Source of the DNA: Phaeotremella fagi
Taxonomy: Eukaryota; Basidiomycota; Tremellomycetes; Tremellales; Phaeotremellaceae
Direction: 5' to 3'
NCBI GenBank assembly: GCA_001599715.1
Contig: BCHU01000007.1
Span: 501,586-565,585, forward strand
DNA length: 64,000 bases
The position numbers were made by a program, and so were the translations under genes. The notes beneath the pieces were generated by a model. The model made no database searches, was not told the origin of the DNA, and saw only the letters and a program-made list of their open reading frames with translations. Positions 1-5,501 of this stretch are shown piece by piece. Numbering within the stretch: the stretch's first letter is position 1; the number at the start of each line of letters is the position of its first letter.

Positions 1-1986
1 AACCACCGATTTAGGTAGAGCAATTTGTAAATCTTCTCTCAAACCCTCCCAATCGATTCCACCGATTTTCTTGTCGAAAAATCGATAACTCCTAATATCA
101 AGACCACAATCTCTTAGAATCGACGTATCCTCTTCGGGAGTTGGATCTGGGATATAAATGATTTTGTTGAGGGGTAAAATGGGAAATTTGGATAAAAAAG
201 TCGCTGCCAGACGTAAAGAACCGGTACTTGAGACTGTTTGGATGGACGCGATCTATCTGTCAATATCGTGTCAGAATTCTGACCTCACCTTTCCTTCTTT
301 ATACACAGGTGTTTCAGCTCCATAAGCGAATTTAACACCAGCATCAAGAAACGGTTGATATCCCTGAACAGGGAGAACTTCTCTCATGTCATGTTTTAAG
401 GTCTTCTCGACGTATCGTACGGTCGGTGGAATAAATATCTGATCGTTATCTTCTCTGAAACCTTGTAACGTCAAATTCAGTTTCACTGGATTGGGATCTT
501 CTTCGTATGCCGAATCAGTTTGTGCAGACCTGAATGTCAGCTTGAACATCCTGTTACACTCACATATCAGGTTGAGCGAGTGGGACCAATGACCAAGTCT
601 CTTTGATCTCAGCCAAACTAGCAGCGTCGACACCATTGGAACGACTCGCAGCGGAAAGCTGATATCAGCCATTTGAACTAGACCGCAACTCACCTGCTGT
701 AAAACATCCAGCAACAAACTACCCTGCTGATCCTGACTCATTCCACTGATACCACCGAGAGACGTAGCATTCAAGGTAAGTTGATTCAAAGCGTTGGCAG
801 CATCTTGTTGACCTAAATTAGCGGCTCTAGTCGCATGAATAATTGTATCCATCGCAGCAGTTGATGCTTGTTCGGGATTCATATTCGATCCTGAACGGAT
901 CAACGATTCCAATGCTTGTACTCTTCGTCCGAGTTCGTAAGTGATTGGTACATCCGCGTTATCACTGTGATATCAGTATAATCATAACGAACAGTGACAC
1001 TCACCGTTTGCGTTTCTTCAATGGGAAAATTGGGACTTCAATACGACACATACTAGCAACACCTCGTTTGATACTATACCGTCAGCGTTGACCTAGAACG
1101 AGTTACTCACCATCGTTTGCAGGGAATGGTACGGTCACACTGATGGTTAGTAGGGAAACGCAAACATCACTTACATGTTCTATAAAGTTAGTTGAAATCC
1201 AGAAGATTTGAACTCACGTTTCTAAAAGTCAGCTCTAATCGTTAATCACAAACTTACTCTCCTGTGACATTCTTAAACACCAATATCAGCCAGACGTCTC
1301 CGAAATACAGACCAAAATCAAATGCTCACCTGTACAACTCCTAAGACATCAATCAGTGATGAAACAAAATAACAAAAACGGAGTAAAGAAACTCACAAAG
1401 TAGTCCTATTCCTCTTCCTCTTGTACCGACTCCCATCCCCAAATCGACTCTCATAATCATCGTCATCGTCAAATTCCTGACCCCCTTCTTCACCTTCAGC
1501 CTCATCTCCTTGTTGTTCAGTTTCCCTGTTACCCAGATTATCGACGAATTCCTGGACCTGTTCTGAAGTTAAGGCGGGTGGTAGGTCATCGACATTCGAA
1601 TCATCTTGAGGTTCCTGGTTATCATTGGGATCTTCGTTATCTTCATTGGTTTCGTTTTCGTTCTCGTTATCGTTGTCGTTATCGTTGTCATTACCAATTC
1701 TGGATAACGCAGCTAGATTGGCTAAAGTAGCCGGATCGAATTGTTCGAATCCATCCCCATCACCCTCGTCGACAACACCTTCATCGACGATCTCTTCCTG
1801 CTCCTGTTCCTGTTCTTGTTCTTGTTCTTGAACCTGTTCTCCATGTCCAAGACCATGCCCATCTGACACTTCCTCATCATCATCCCCAATGTGAACGATA
1901 GAATCGACGAAAGCTTGAATCCCATCATCCCCCTCCCCCTCTGCCGACTGGACACCGATTCCCCCAGAAACGAGATTATCGGACAT
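1..1986 (-). CDS. Zn2Cys6 transcription-factor domain fused in frame to an aspartate-aminotransferase-like domain (3' end outside window)
   Basis: Eleven exons by eye: 1397-1986, 1330-1340, 1258-1271, 1218-1221, 1175-1179, 1111-1139, 1005-1073, 694-964, 564-658, 289-529 and 1-252 onward. The spliced frame is open for 527 codons. Residues 1-196 are acidic with Q/E and N/D repeats. Cysteines 199, 202, 209, 215, 218 and 227 form C-x2-C-x6-C-x5-C-x2-C-x8-C (read as SCTECHRRKQHC, then CDRTIPCKRC), followed by a basic stretch and a short coil (ELGRRVQALESLI), as in fungal Gal4-type regulators. From about residue 332 the chain matches the aspartate aminotransferase N-terminus: WSLVPLAQPD, NPVKLNL, EVLPVQGYQPF, IQTVSSTGSLRLAATF. 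The linking intron (659-693) is in frame and no stop separates the two halves. Several PLP-site residues differ from real enzymes, so I infer a metabolite-sensing nuclear regulator. The catalytic lysine would lie outside the window. Confidence 0.8.
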
Positions 1987-2520: not shown

Positions 2521-4029
2521 TCAGATCTCAACAGTAGCCAAAACATCTTTAACCAACTCCCAAACCCCTTCTCCAGAATCGATCAAAACCTTCCCCACCA
2601 ATTTCAAACATTCTTTGGCAGGTACCACCACCCAAAAGTATCTGTTCTCACCACTTTGCGTAGAGTGAATGAGATGCAATAAAGCAGTTAAAGCGAATGT
2701 TAAGACTACGTAGGCTGCTATTGATTCTTCTTCCATCATTTCGAAGAAATGGTTGGGTATCTGATTTAACCATTTTGAGATTGATATTATCGGTTCACGA
2801 TCTATGTGATGATCATTTAGAGTTTGGTTATGACGTGAAGTTGGTTCCCAACTTTCCACTAATAGAGAGATCGAGTTGATGGTCGTTATAACGTCATTCG
2901 GATTCTTAGGTTTATCAATAACCTTAGTTAGATTCCAGGGTAGATTCAGAATATTTTGATGAAACTCTTTAGGTAGACGTGATTGCCTATTTACCGATAA
3001 AGAGATAACAGCGTTTGAAGAGGAGTATTGAGAATTGTCTTCACCATACAACCGGGATTGTTTCAGCGTATGACAAAATCCCAAAACATCGAATTGAGGT
3101 TTGATCAAACCCATTCGATCCAGTTGAAAACCCAAAGTCCATCTCGAAAACCTGATCAAAAGGTTCATCTCATTCAACGCCAACCAAAATTCTCCAATAC
3201 CGTTATCGACCTGATCATCAATTGCTGAATAACTTTGGACGAAATCTTGATACGTGTTCGTCATTTTCGTGAACAGCTGGTACTTGATTTCCAGATTTCT
3301 TTCTTGGATTGCCAAGTGGGACGATGAGATTGTTAACAGACCATACATGATCCATTCGTTGGTTATTGCCAGTTGGATGATATCTTTTGTCCAATAATCT
3401 GAATTTCCCTTTGGGTGGGTTAACAACTCGCTAACCTCCTTGATGTAGTGATGGAAATATTTCATCGACTCTAAATCGATTGTCGGTTTCTGAAAATCAG
3501 ATGTCAACGAGTGAGAGGTTTGATTTGAGGTGGAATCATTCTCTAACAGATTTCGATCATGATTAGGTTGATCTCCATCATCCACCTTTGAAACTTCAAA
3601 ATACCGAATCTTATTCCCCCTAAAGAAAGTCTGCATCAAAACCCTAACAGCCATACTTTCAAACGAAGAATCACCACCACCAGAATCATCTTGATGAATT
3701 TCAAAATGTTTCCTCATAACTTTTCCACTAACGAATAAAGATCCACAACCATTTTTCAAACACTTGAAACCATCCAGCAACCCCAACCCATCTATAGGTC
3801 CAGGTTTATTCGTGGGCACCGAAACATCATCTGGATCGCTTATATCGAGTCTACTGAATTCTTTCAATAGATTCTGTCGGTCTTGACGATAGATTTTATG
3901 TTTGAGGAGATGACTGCTCAAAGCTGATTTTTGGATTGCGTATTGACATTTCAGACAGATTAGGATTCGATGTTGAGGATGATATTTGAAATTGTCTTTG
4001 GTGATCTCGTTGGTTCTTTCTACTGGCAT
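2521..4029 (-). CDS. OrsD-like zinc-finger protein with fungal transcription-factor-type C-terminal region
   Basis: An intronless 502-residue protein with its start at 4029. Residues 15-45 (YHPQHRILICLKCQYAI..SHLLKH) resemble the C2H2-like finger of OrsD / 'orsellinic acid biosynthesis cluster protein C' (DUF3505) proteins. A second CxxxxC..HxxxxH finger follows near residues 88-112 (FKCLKNGCGSLF..KHFEIH). The middle region (MKYFHHYIKEVSELL..., ITNEWIMYGLLTISSSHLA) looks like the start of the regulatory domain found in Upc2-type fungal regulators. It is probably a nuclear regulator. It diverges from the reductase at 4394 with 364 bp between them, so shared control is possible. The target is unknown; the fungal-TF assignment of the C-terminus is family recognition, not proof. 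Confidence 0.7.
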   Translation of the reverse strand: MPVERTNEITKDNFKYHPQHRILICLKCQYAIQKSALSSHLLKHKIYRQDRQNLLKEFSRLDISDPDDVSVPTNKPGPIDGLGLLDGFKCLKNGCGSLFVSGKVMRKHFEIHQDDSGGGDSSFESMAVRVLMQTFFRGNKIRYFEVSKVDDGDQPNHDRNLLENDSTSNQTSHSLTSDFQKPTIDLESMKYFHHYIKEVSELLTHPKGNSDYWTKDIIQLAITNEWIMYGLLTISSSHLAIQERNLEIKYQLFTKMTNTYQDFVQSYSAIDDQVDNGIGEFWLALNEMNLLIRFSRWTLGFQLDRMGLIKPQFDVLGFCHTLKQSRLYGEDNSQYSSSNAVISLSVNRQSRLPKEFHQNILNLPWNLTKVIDKPKNPNDVITTINSISLLVESWEPTSRHNQTLNDHHIDREPIISISKWLNQIPNHFFEMMEEESIAAYVVLTFALTALLHLIHSTQSGENRYFWVVVPAKECLKLVGKVLIDSGEGVWELVKDVLATVEI

Positions 4030-4393
4030 CTGTGGTGTGATTCTGATTCGGTGGTTCGGTGATTTGATGGATCATTCATCGATATTGGTCATTCAAATGG
4101 ACAATATACGATTCATTGGACTTGTTGCTTATTTAAGAATTGGTTTGTTAGGTGGGATTATTTGCTTACGGCATATAATTTGATGTGGCATTCTTGGAAT
4201 GTTATATGTGATTATAAGGCCCCTGAATATCGATTCCATGCTGATTATTCGCATTTGCATCGTATCGCTAAGCAAGAGATCATGCCAAAGTCAACGAGAA
4301 AAAGCTATAAAGGTTGTCGCAAATTCGTAAAATCCCAACTCATCTTCTCAAGAATAACCAAATAATTCACCTCTCTCGTGTTAAACAACCAAA
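4030..4393. promoter_or_regulatory. Divergent intergenic region between zinc-finger regulator and MDR reductase
   Basis: A 364-bp gap between two divergent starts (4029 minus, 4394 plus), so it must hold both promoters. I see no strong TATA box or palindromic operator. Short open frames here look like noise. Confidence 0.5.
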
Positions 4394-5501
4394 ATGTCTA
4401 CCCCAATCAACAAAGCCGCACAACTAGTCGAAGCTGGTACACCATTCCAAATCGCTGAGGTCCCATTACCGACCCCAGGACCTGGTGAGGTTCTCATCAA
4501 GAATTCAGCCATCGCCATCAATCCCGTTGATTCTCATCAGAAAGAATCCGGTGTTTTCGTTAAAAATTGGCCTGCGATTTTAGGTAACGACGTCTCCGGT
4601 ATCGTTTATCAAGTTGGTCCTGATGTCACTCGTTTCAAGGAAGGTGATAGAGTTATTGGGTAAGTTCGTATCCTTTTAGGAGTTCTGGTCTACTAATCAA
4701 TCTAACAGATTATCCCCACAACTGCTCACTGGTGATTCCAAACATGGGGCATTCGCTCTTTATACCGTACTGCCAATTTCGATGGTAGCCATTCTACCAG
4801 ATAATCTCACTTTCGCTGAAGGTGCCGTCATTCCCATGGCGTTAGGTTCATCACTCAGTGCTTTCTACACCAAAGAACCTATCCCTATAATGCCAGGTGT
4901 CACTACCCCAGTATTCGGTTTAGGTTATCCAACCCTAACACCGTCGGTCTCCAACCAAACCCTCGTCGTTTACGGTGGTTCATCATCAATCGGTTCAATG
5001 GCTACTCAAATAGCTACAGCCGCTGGTATCAAAGTGATCTCAATCACCGGATCAAAGAATTTCGAACTCAGTAAACTCTGTGGAGCGGTTGAAAGTATCG
5101 ATTATAAAGATGAGCAAGTGGTTGATAAAGTCGTTCAAGCTGTTGAAAAACATGGAGGTTTCATTGGTATACTCGACGCTATCTCCATTCCATCAACTTA
5201 TGAGATTGATTTATCTATCATCTCGAAACTCAAGGTTGACCATCGTGTTCATTTGGTTACTAGTCATCCGCCACCTAGTCTTCCAAAGGAATTGAACGTT
5301 GACACAGGAATGATCTTCGCTGTTATGGACGTCGCACCAAAAGTTTGGGAAGACTTTATTACTCCAGCTTTAAAAGATGGATTGATCAAACCTCTTCCAG
5401 CACCATACATTGTTGGTAAAGGATTAGAGAATGTTGAGATTGGTTTGGAAATGGTTAAGAAAGGTGTTAGTGGGATGAAGATCGTCGTTGATCTAGAGTA
5501 G
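4394..5501 (+). CDS. Medium-chain dehydrogenase/reductase, trans-enoyl-reductase type
   Basis: Two exons, 4394-4659 and 4709-5501, give 352 residues. The N-terminal GroES-like half has PTPGPGEVLIKNSAIAINPV and LGNDVSGIVYQVG. After the intron comes the Rossmann nucleotide-binding stretch (VVYGGSSSIGSMATQIA), which ends with ITGSKNF. The cysteine ligands of zinc alcohol dehydrogenases are absent, which fits the zinc-independent quinone/enoyl reductase branch (ToxD-like trans-ER of secondary metabolism, also found in standalone oxidoreductases). It should reduce an activated double bond with NADPH in the cytosol. No polyketide synthase is visible nearby, so the substrate is open. Confidence 0.85.

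Follow-up and report, generated by a model that had tools for sequence, protein, structure and literature searches.

A putative fungal regulator that joins a zinc cluster to a degenerate aspartate aminotransferase fold

The stretch analysed here, called the window, comprises 64,000 nucleotides (nt) of the 22.6-Mb genome of the fungus Phaeotremella fagi (contig BCHU01000007.1, positions 501,586 to 565,585 of the forward strand; G000:C7:501586-565585 in our numbering). Its first 1,986 positions carry, on the minus strand, the 5' portion of a gene for a protein of 857 amino acids (aa); the 3' end of the gene was taken from the adjoining stretch of the same contig, locus L002. The original prediction, made from the window alone, held that this gene fuses a Zn2Cys6 zinc cluster to an aspartate aminotransferase (AAT) fold, as a possible eukaryotic counterpart of the bacterial MocR/GabR regulators. 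Our analysis supports the fusion and indicates that its AAT part is a pseudoenzyme that is unlikely to bind pyridoxal 5'-phosphate (PLP).

The spliced model, built by hand, runs from an ATG at 1986 to a stop codon at window position -1146 (L002 6840) and consists of 15 exons separated by 14 introns of 34-58 nt (Table 1). The predicted open frame of 527 codons is present, with 1581 nt of spliced sequence within the window. As an independent check, the related proteins P0001 and P0026 were aligned to the gene with a splice-aware dynamic programme. This homology-guided alignment reproduced all 14 introns, and the two exons at the proposed junction (964-694 and 658-564) were recovered exactly in both models. 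A branch-site-like CTNAY motif lies 10-22 nt before the 3' end of every intron (14 of 14), against a background occurrence in 26% of 31-nt windows across the locus; the motif played no part in building either model. Several exons are tiny, including microexons of 4 and 5 nt, and tiny exons are already known from this group of fungi.

The protein has an acidic N-terminus (residues 1-185), followed by a basic stretch, the zinc cluster (199-227), a helical linker to about residue 350, a whole AAT fold to about residue 757, and a long charged helix to residue 857. In a Pfam scan the cluster matches PF00172 with 27.5 bits (cut-off 21; E = 3.3e-6) and the AAT part matches PF00155 above its curated cut-off (E = 5.5e-25). 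Thus the acidic N-terminus and complete six-cysteine cluster that had been read from the open frame are both there. The reported lack of a fungal middle homology region also holds, as neither PF04082 nor PF11951 is matched up to E = 0.1. The same scan of this protein found no GntR-type winged-helix domain, leaving PF00172 as the DNA-binding-type domain present, and no shikimate-pathway domain such as those of AROM. Two short motifs are conserved in the acidic region, of which the first, FDPATLANLAALSRI, may be an activation or contact motif.

The predicted AAT fold does follow the cluster and coil, but the window covers only its N-terminal part and stops short of the PLP lysine position. Assembled across both stretches, the AAT part is about one-third identical to solved AATs and matches mitochondrial AAT (1ama) from end to end (E = 1.8e-76). 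An AlphaFold2 structure of the Kwoniella pini relative P0001 (mean predicted local distance difference test score, pLDDT, 66.5; predicted template modelling score 0.50) likewise matches solved AATs across the whole fold. By region, pLDDT is mostly ~85-96 in the AAT part and ~61-73 in the linker helices, and the N-terminus is disordered. No GabR/MocR chain was found among the 50 structure-comparison matches listed. The final AAT helix extends into a conserved charged helix of ~100 residues (L002 6840 to ~7160, minus strand, outside the window), which is predicted as a single long helix in P0001 (833-954). This C-terminus resembles PV-1 (PF06637): the window protein scores 15.3 bits where the cut-off is 30.1, and 16 of 33 relatives match at E ≤ 0.01. 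The match was rejected and is taken as a likeness between charged helices.

A first homologue search yielded 35 proteins, comprising 33 family members and two canonical AATs. In this search and a later one, scoring was confined to the candidates with the highest word overlap (7996 and 7992, respectively), so the family may extend beyond the named fungi. Named members belong to Tremellales and Trichosporonales; for Vanrija, Dioszegia and Cutaneotrichosporon the order was looked up. Residues were tallied in 34 sequences (the 33 relatives and the window protein), with the two canonical AATs as reference and with positions numbered as in pig cytosolic AAT; titles in the structure comparison attest K258, D222, H143, H189, Y225 and R386. 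The PLP lysine, K258, is replaced in all 34 sequences, by alanine in 28 (including the window protein), threonine in four and serine in two. Equally without exception, D222 has become M, V, I, L or S, R266 has become S, and R386 has become C (29 sequences) or S (five); both reference AATs retain all four of these residues. Y70, G108 and W140 are likewise replaced throughout, and N194 is replaced in 33 sequences and falls in a gap in the other. Loss of the lysine alone would leave PLP binding possible, but the joint loss of lysine, D222 and R266 probably precludes it.

In a tree of 16 of the 34 family members and seven canonical AATs, the family forms one clade (support 100/100) on a long stem of 1.63 changes per column, which suggests one origin, then fast change, then conservation. 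Judged from these sequences, the AAT part is a pseudoenzyme that arose once within this tree. Three canonical AATs that retain the lysine are encoded elsewhere in the genome, on contigs C4, C9 and C12. A separate protein, P0035 (Kwoniella dejecticola I303_108100), has an HpcH/HpaI aldolase domain (PF03328) ahead of a canonical AAT with its lysine; this is either another AAT fusion or a gene-model artefact.

These replacements bear directly on the proposed kinship with MocR/GabR proteins, members of the GntR family in which a DNA-binding domain also stands N-terminal to a class I aminotransferase-like domain. GabR works through PLP and its external aldimine (PMC6522883), whereas the fungal protein has a zinc cluster in place of the winged helix, has lost the PLP lysine and other PLP contacts in every sequence, and carries an additional linker domain and C-terminal helix. 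Despite the likeness in overall plan, a sensor of PLP or amino acids after the MocR/GabR fashion is very unlikely here. Of the suggestion that fungi invented such a fusion independently, the independent origin stands, but the pocket appears dead and incompetent for PLP.

Whether the two domains belong to one gene can be judged from the relatives. All 33 have PF00155. Both PF00172 and PF00155 are found in six in precomputed annotation and in 13 at E ≤ 0.01. Six relatives keep the full six-cysteine pattern, with a cluster nearly unchanged, and the window gene is the seventh. The database proteins P0003, P0004, P0006, P0009, P0019, P0020 and P0021 (seven of 33) lack exactly K-Q-H, the residues encoded by the microexons. 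Eight models, including the entry covering Cryptococcus neoformans (P0024), begin downstream of the cluster, and on their face these could be AAT-only proteins; a cluster in them is putative. The clusters of the remaining 12 are disrupted in other ways (four of these 12 were inspected whole). The models from Kockovaella (P0031) and Papiliotrema (P0033) lack the linker too, leaving the fusion unverified in both. In most of these relatives the missing or broken cluster probably reflects gene-model errors around the tiny exons. This is in line with a report that, for many fungal regulators, the lack of a DNA-binding domain in database entries results from faulty gene prediction (PMC10141177).

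A second, profile-based search gave 42 proteins, of which 10 were new: eight fragments and two canonical AATs. The fragments (P0036-P0042 and P0045) stand outside the tally of 34, and P0038, P0039 and P0041 were not inspected. In P0045, a contig open reading frame, cluster and linker are read in one frame, which ends in LQQVS at the position of the window-gene intron 693-659, as expected from read-through of the donor of that intron. In P0036, P0037 and P0040 the linker runs into the AAT within one exon, and in P0026 both domains are in one frame. These observations, together with the identical introns obtained by homology, led us to reject the explanation that a zinc-cluster gene and an adjacent AAT gene have been fused on paper only. 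That explanation can draw on the eight late-starting models and on the dependence of the junction on a 35-nt intron. However, no ATG-led AAT start was seen at the junction in the sequence, and the linker is always accompanied by the AAT domain: all 22 matches of a linker-only search are family members with PF00155. Relatives encoding the two parts as separate genes were not met among the sequences examined, and we regard two genes as extremely improbable.

The scarcity of readable clusters among annotated relatives could also mean that the protein derives from an AAT and that its cluster no longer works, for example in a cytoplasmic scaffold. The near-constancy of the cluster in the six full-pattern relatives and the window protein, and the basic stretches on both sides of it, argue otherwise and make this quite unlikely.

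On balance, the protein is probably a zinc-cluster regulator in which a dead AAT fold would serve, without PLP, as the dimerisation and regulatory module that replaces the middle homology region. Such a protein would bind DNA through its zinc cluster. The dead fold would still form the head-to-tail dimer of AATs and so keep a pair of clusters a fixed distance apart. Transcription would be activated by the acidic N-terminus and the two short, conserved helices in it, and any input would arrive via a remodelled surface or pocket or through a partner protein, rather than by PLP chemistry. Head-to-tail dimers are formed by AATs and MocR proteins (PMC5320631), and dimerisation of the aminotransferase-like domain enables DNA binding by GabR (PMC6522883).

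Several observations weigh against a regulator with a dead scaffold. As annotated, the full six-cysteine pattern is absent from 27 of the 33 relatives, and PF00172 goes unmatched at E ≤ 0.01 in 20. In the AlphaFold2 models the zinc cluster has low and the linker middling confidence, and the predicted structure of the P0045 cluster and linker (mean pLDDT 57) is too poor for a fold search. Some cofactor-site residues are kept, namely T109 and R292 in all 34 sequences, S107 in 32, S255 in 23 and Y225 in 11; thus, some phosphate or carboxylate ligand may still bind. R292, T109 and the new conserved acids speak against a pure scaffold.

These residues raise the possibility that the pocket has become a sensor of some non-PLP metabolite, such as a dicarboxylate or a phosphate compound, and that the bound ligand switches the regulator. 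A mechanism of this kind has been proposed for fungal regulators derived from enzymes. In AATs, R292 contacts the carboxylate of the substrate side chain. Besides this arginine and T109, the family has two near-invariant new acids, D143 (33 of 34, E in one) and D257 (31, E in three), along with S266 (all 34) and a histidine at 297 (31). Of the 397 columns of the domain, those of D143, S266 and R292 rank with the best conserved. There is precedent in the QutR-type repressors, which are thought to be inactive yet to bind an inducer (PMC10512348). However, positions 70, 108, 140, 189, 194 and 222, six classical positions of the pocket, fall within the most variable fifth of those columns and so drift more than four-fifths of the domain, and a shared ligand pocket predicts otherwise. 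Weighing both sides, we favour the scaffold and consider a sensor possible but rather unlikely.

A broader proposal is that these proteins form a eukaryotic class that arose once, in an ancestor of Tremellales and Trichosporonales, that the dead AAT fold acts in them as sensor and dimer clamp independently of PLP, and that splicing can switch their DNA binding. Exons 4 and 5 together measure 9 nt, are in frame and specify K-Q-H, which lies between cysteines 2 and 3. A transcript that skips the two would therefore code for a full-length protein whose cluster does not work. The seven database proteins lacking K-Q-H may be annotation errors or real isoforms. Taken as a whole, this proposal is doubtful.

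The principle of the proposed regulator is partly known. Its cluster has the GAL4-type CX2CX6CX5CX2CX8C pattern followed by a basic and then a helical region, but the AAT fold occupies the place of the middle homology region, which is common in GAL4-type factors though not obligatory. With class I AATs it shares the whole fold, whereas catalytic and cofactor residues are replaced. In concept it resembles the AROM-derived regulators QutA/QutR and TanX/GaaX, fungal regulators made of inactive metabolic-enzyme domains; QutA carries AROM-derived domains. QutR is similar to the C-terminal half of AROM, and QutA is a Zn2Cys6 activator (PMC10512348). Unlike these systems, the window protein uses an aspartate aminotransferase, occurs in another lineage, and combines its cluster and pseudoenzyme in a single chain. 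A published survey of the regulator families of fungi describes zinc clusters combined with other DNA-binding domains, and the word "aminotransferase" is absent from its text (PMC5415576). A literature search of incomplete coverage turned up no published account of a fusion between a zinc cluster and an aminotransferase fold. The plan is thus familiar from bacterial MocR and the inactive-enzyme regulator from fungal Qut/Tan/Gaa; the combination is apparently new.

Table 1. Positions of gene features in the window
Feature	Position	Strand	Basis
Exon 1: start codon (ATG), acidic N-terminus of low complexity, two short conserved helices, basic stretch ahead of zinc cluster	1397..1986	-	Spliced model; same donor in homology-guided alignment
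Conserved motif FDPATLANLAALSRI, aa 83-97, predicted helix in acidic region	1696..1740	-	Consensus of 33 relatives; helix H142-154 in P0001 model
Conserved motif LTSEQVQEFVDNL, aa 139-151	1534..1572	-	Consensus LTREQVQEFV
Six-cysteine zinc cluster CTECHRRKQHCDRTIPCKRCIKRGVASMC, aa 199-227, CX2CX6CX5CX2CX8C, split across exons 2-7	1046..1336	-	PF00172; cysteine pattern
Exon 2, 11 nt	1330..1340	-	Both gene models
Exon 3, 14 nt	1258..1271	-	Both gene models
Exon 4, microexon, 4 nt	1218..1221	-	Both gene models; branch-site-like motifs
Exon 5, microexon, 5 nt	1175..1179	-	Both gene models; branch-site-like motifs
Exon 6, 29 nt: cysteines 3-4 and part of 5	1111..1139	-	Both gene models
Exon 7, 69 nt: last part of zinc cluster, basic stretch	1005..1073	-	Both gene models
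Exon 8: helical linker	694..964	-	Linker search; P0001 model
Intron, 35 nt, separating linker from aminotransferase-like part	659..693	-	Both gene models; P0045 ending
Exon 9: end of linker and start of aminotransferase fold (WSLVPLAQPD)	564..658	-	Both gene models; match to AAT
Exon 10: aminotransferase fold	289..529	-	Both gene models; match to AAT
Exon 11, part in window: aminotransferase fold; runs on outside to -80, then exons 12-15 to -1146	1..252	-	Both gene models

Beside the zinc-cluster/AAT gene, an open frame of 505 aa on the minus strand (window 2524-4038) matches OrsD (PF12013, E = 2.5e-20) and Fungal_trans_2 (PF11951, E = 2.4e-6) and is possibly another regulator. A zinc-type alcohol dehydrogenase-like gene (PF08240, PF00107) lies on the plus strand at 4388-5501.

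If the proposed reading is true, a DNA-binding domain and an aminotransferase fold were joined independently in fungi, and the PLP chemistry of the bacterial version was then discarded. Such regulators would also be hidden from surveys: models start late and several entries are named aminotransferases, so that surveys by DNA-binding domain could miss them. A published deletion library of C. neoformans covers 155 genes picked by DNA-binding domain (PMC4391232).
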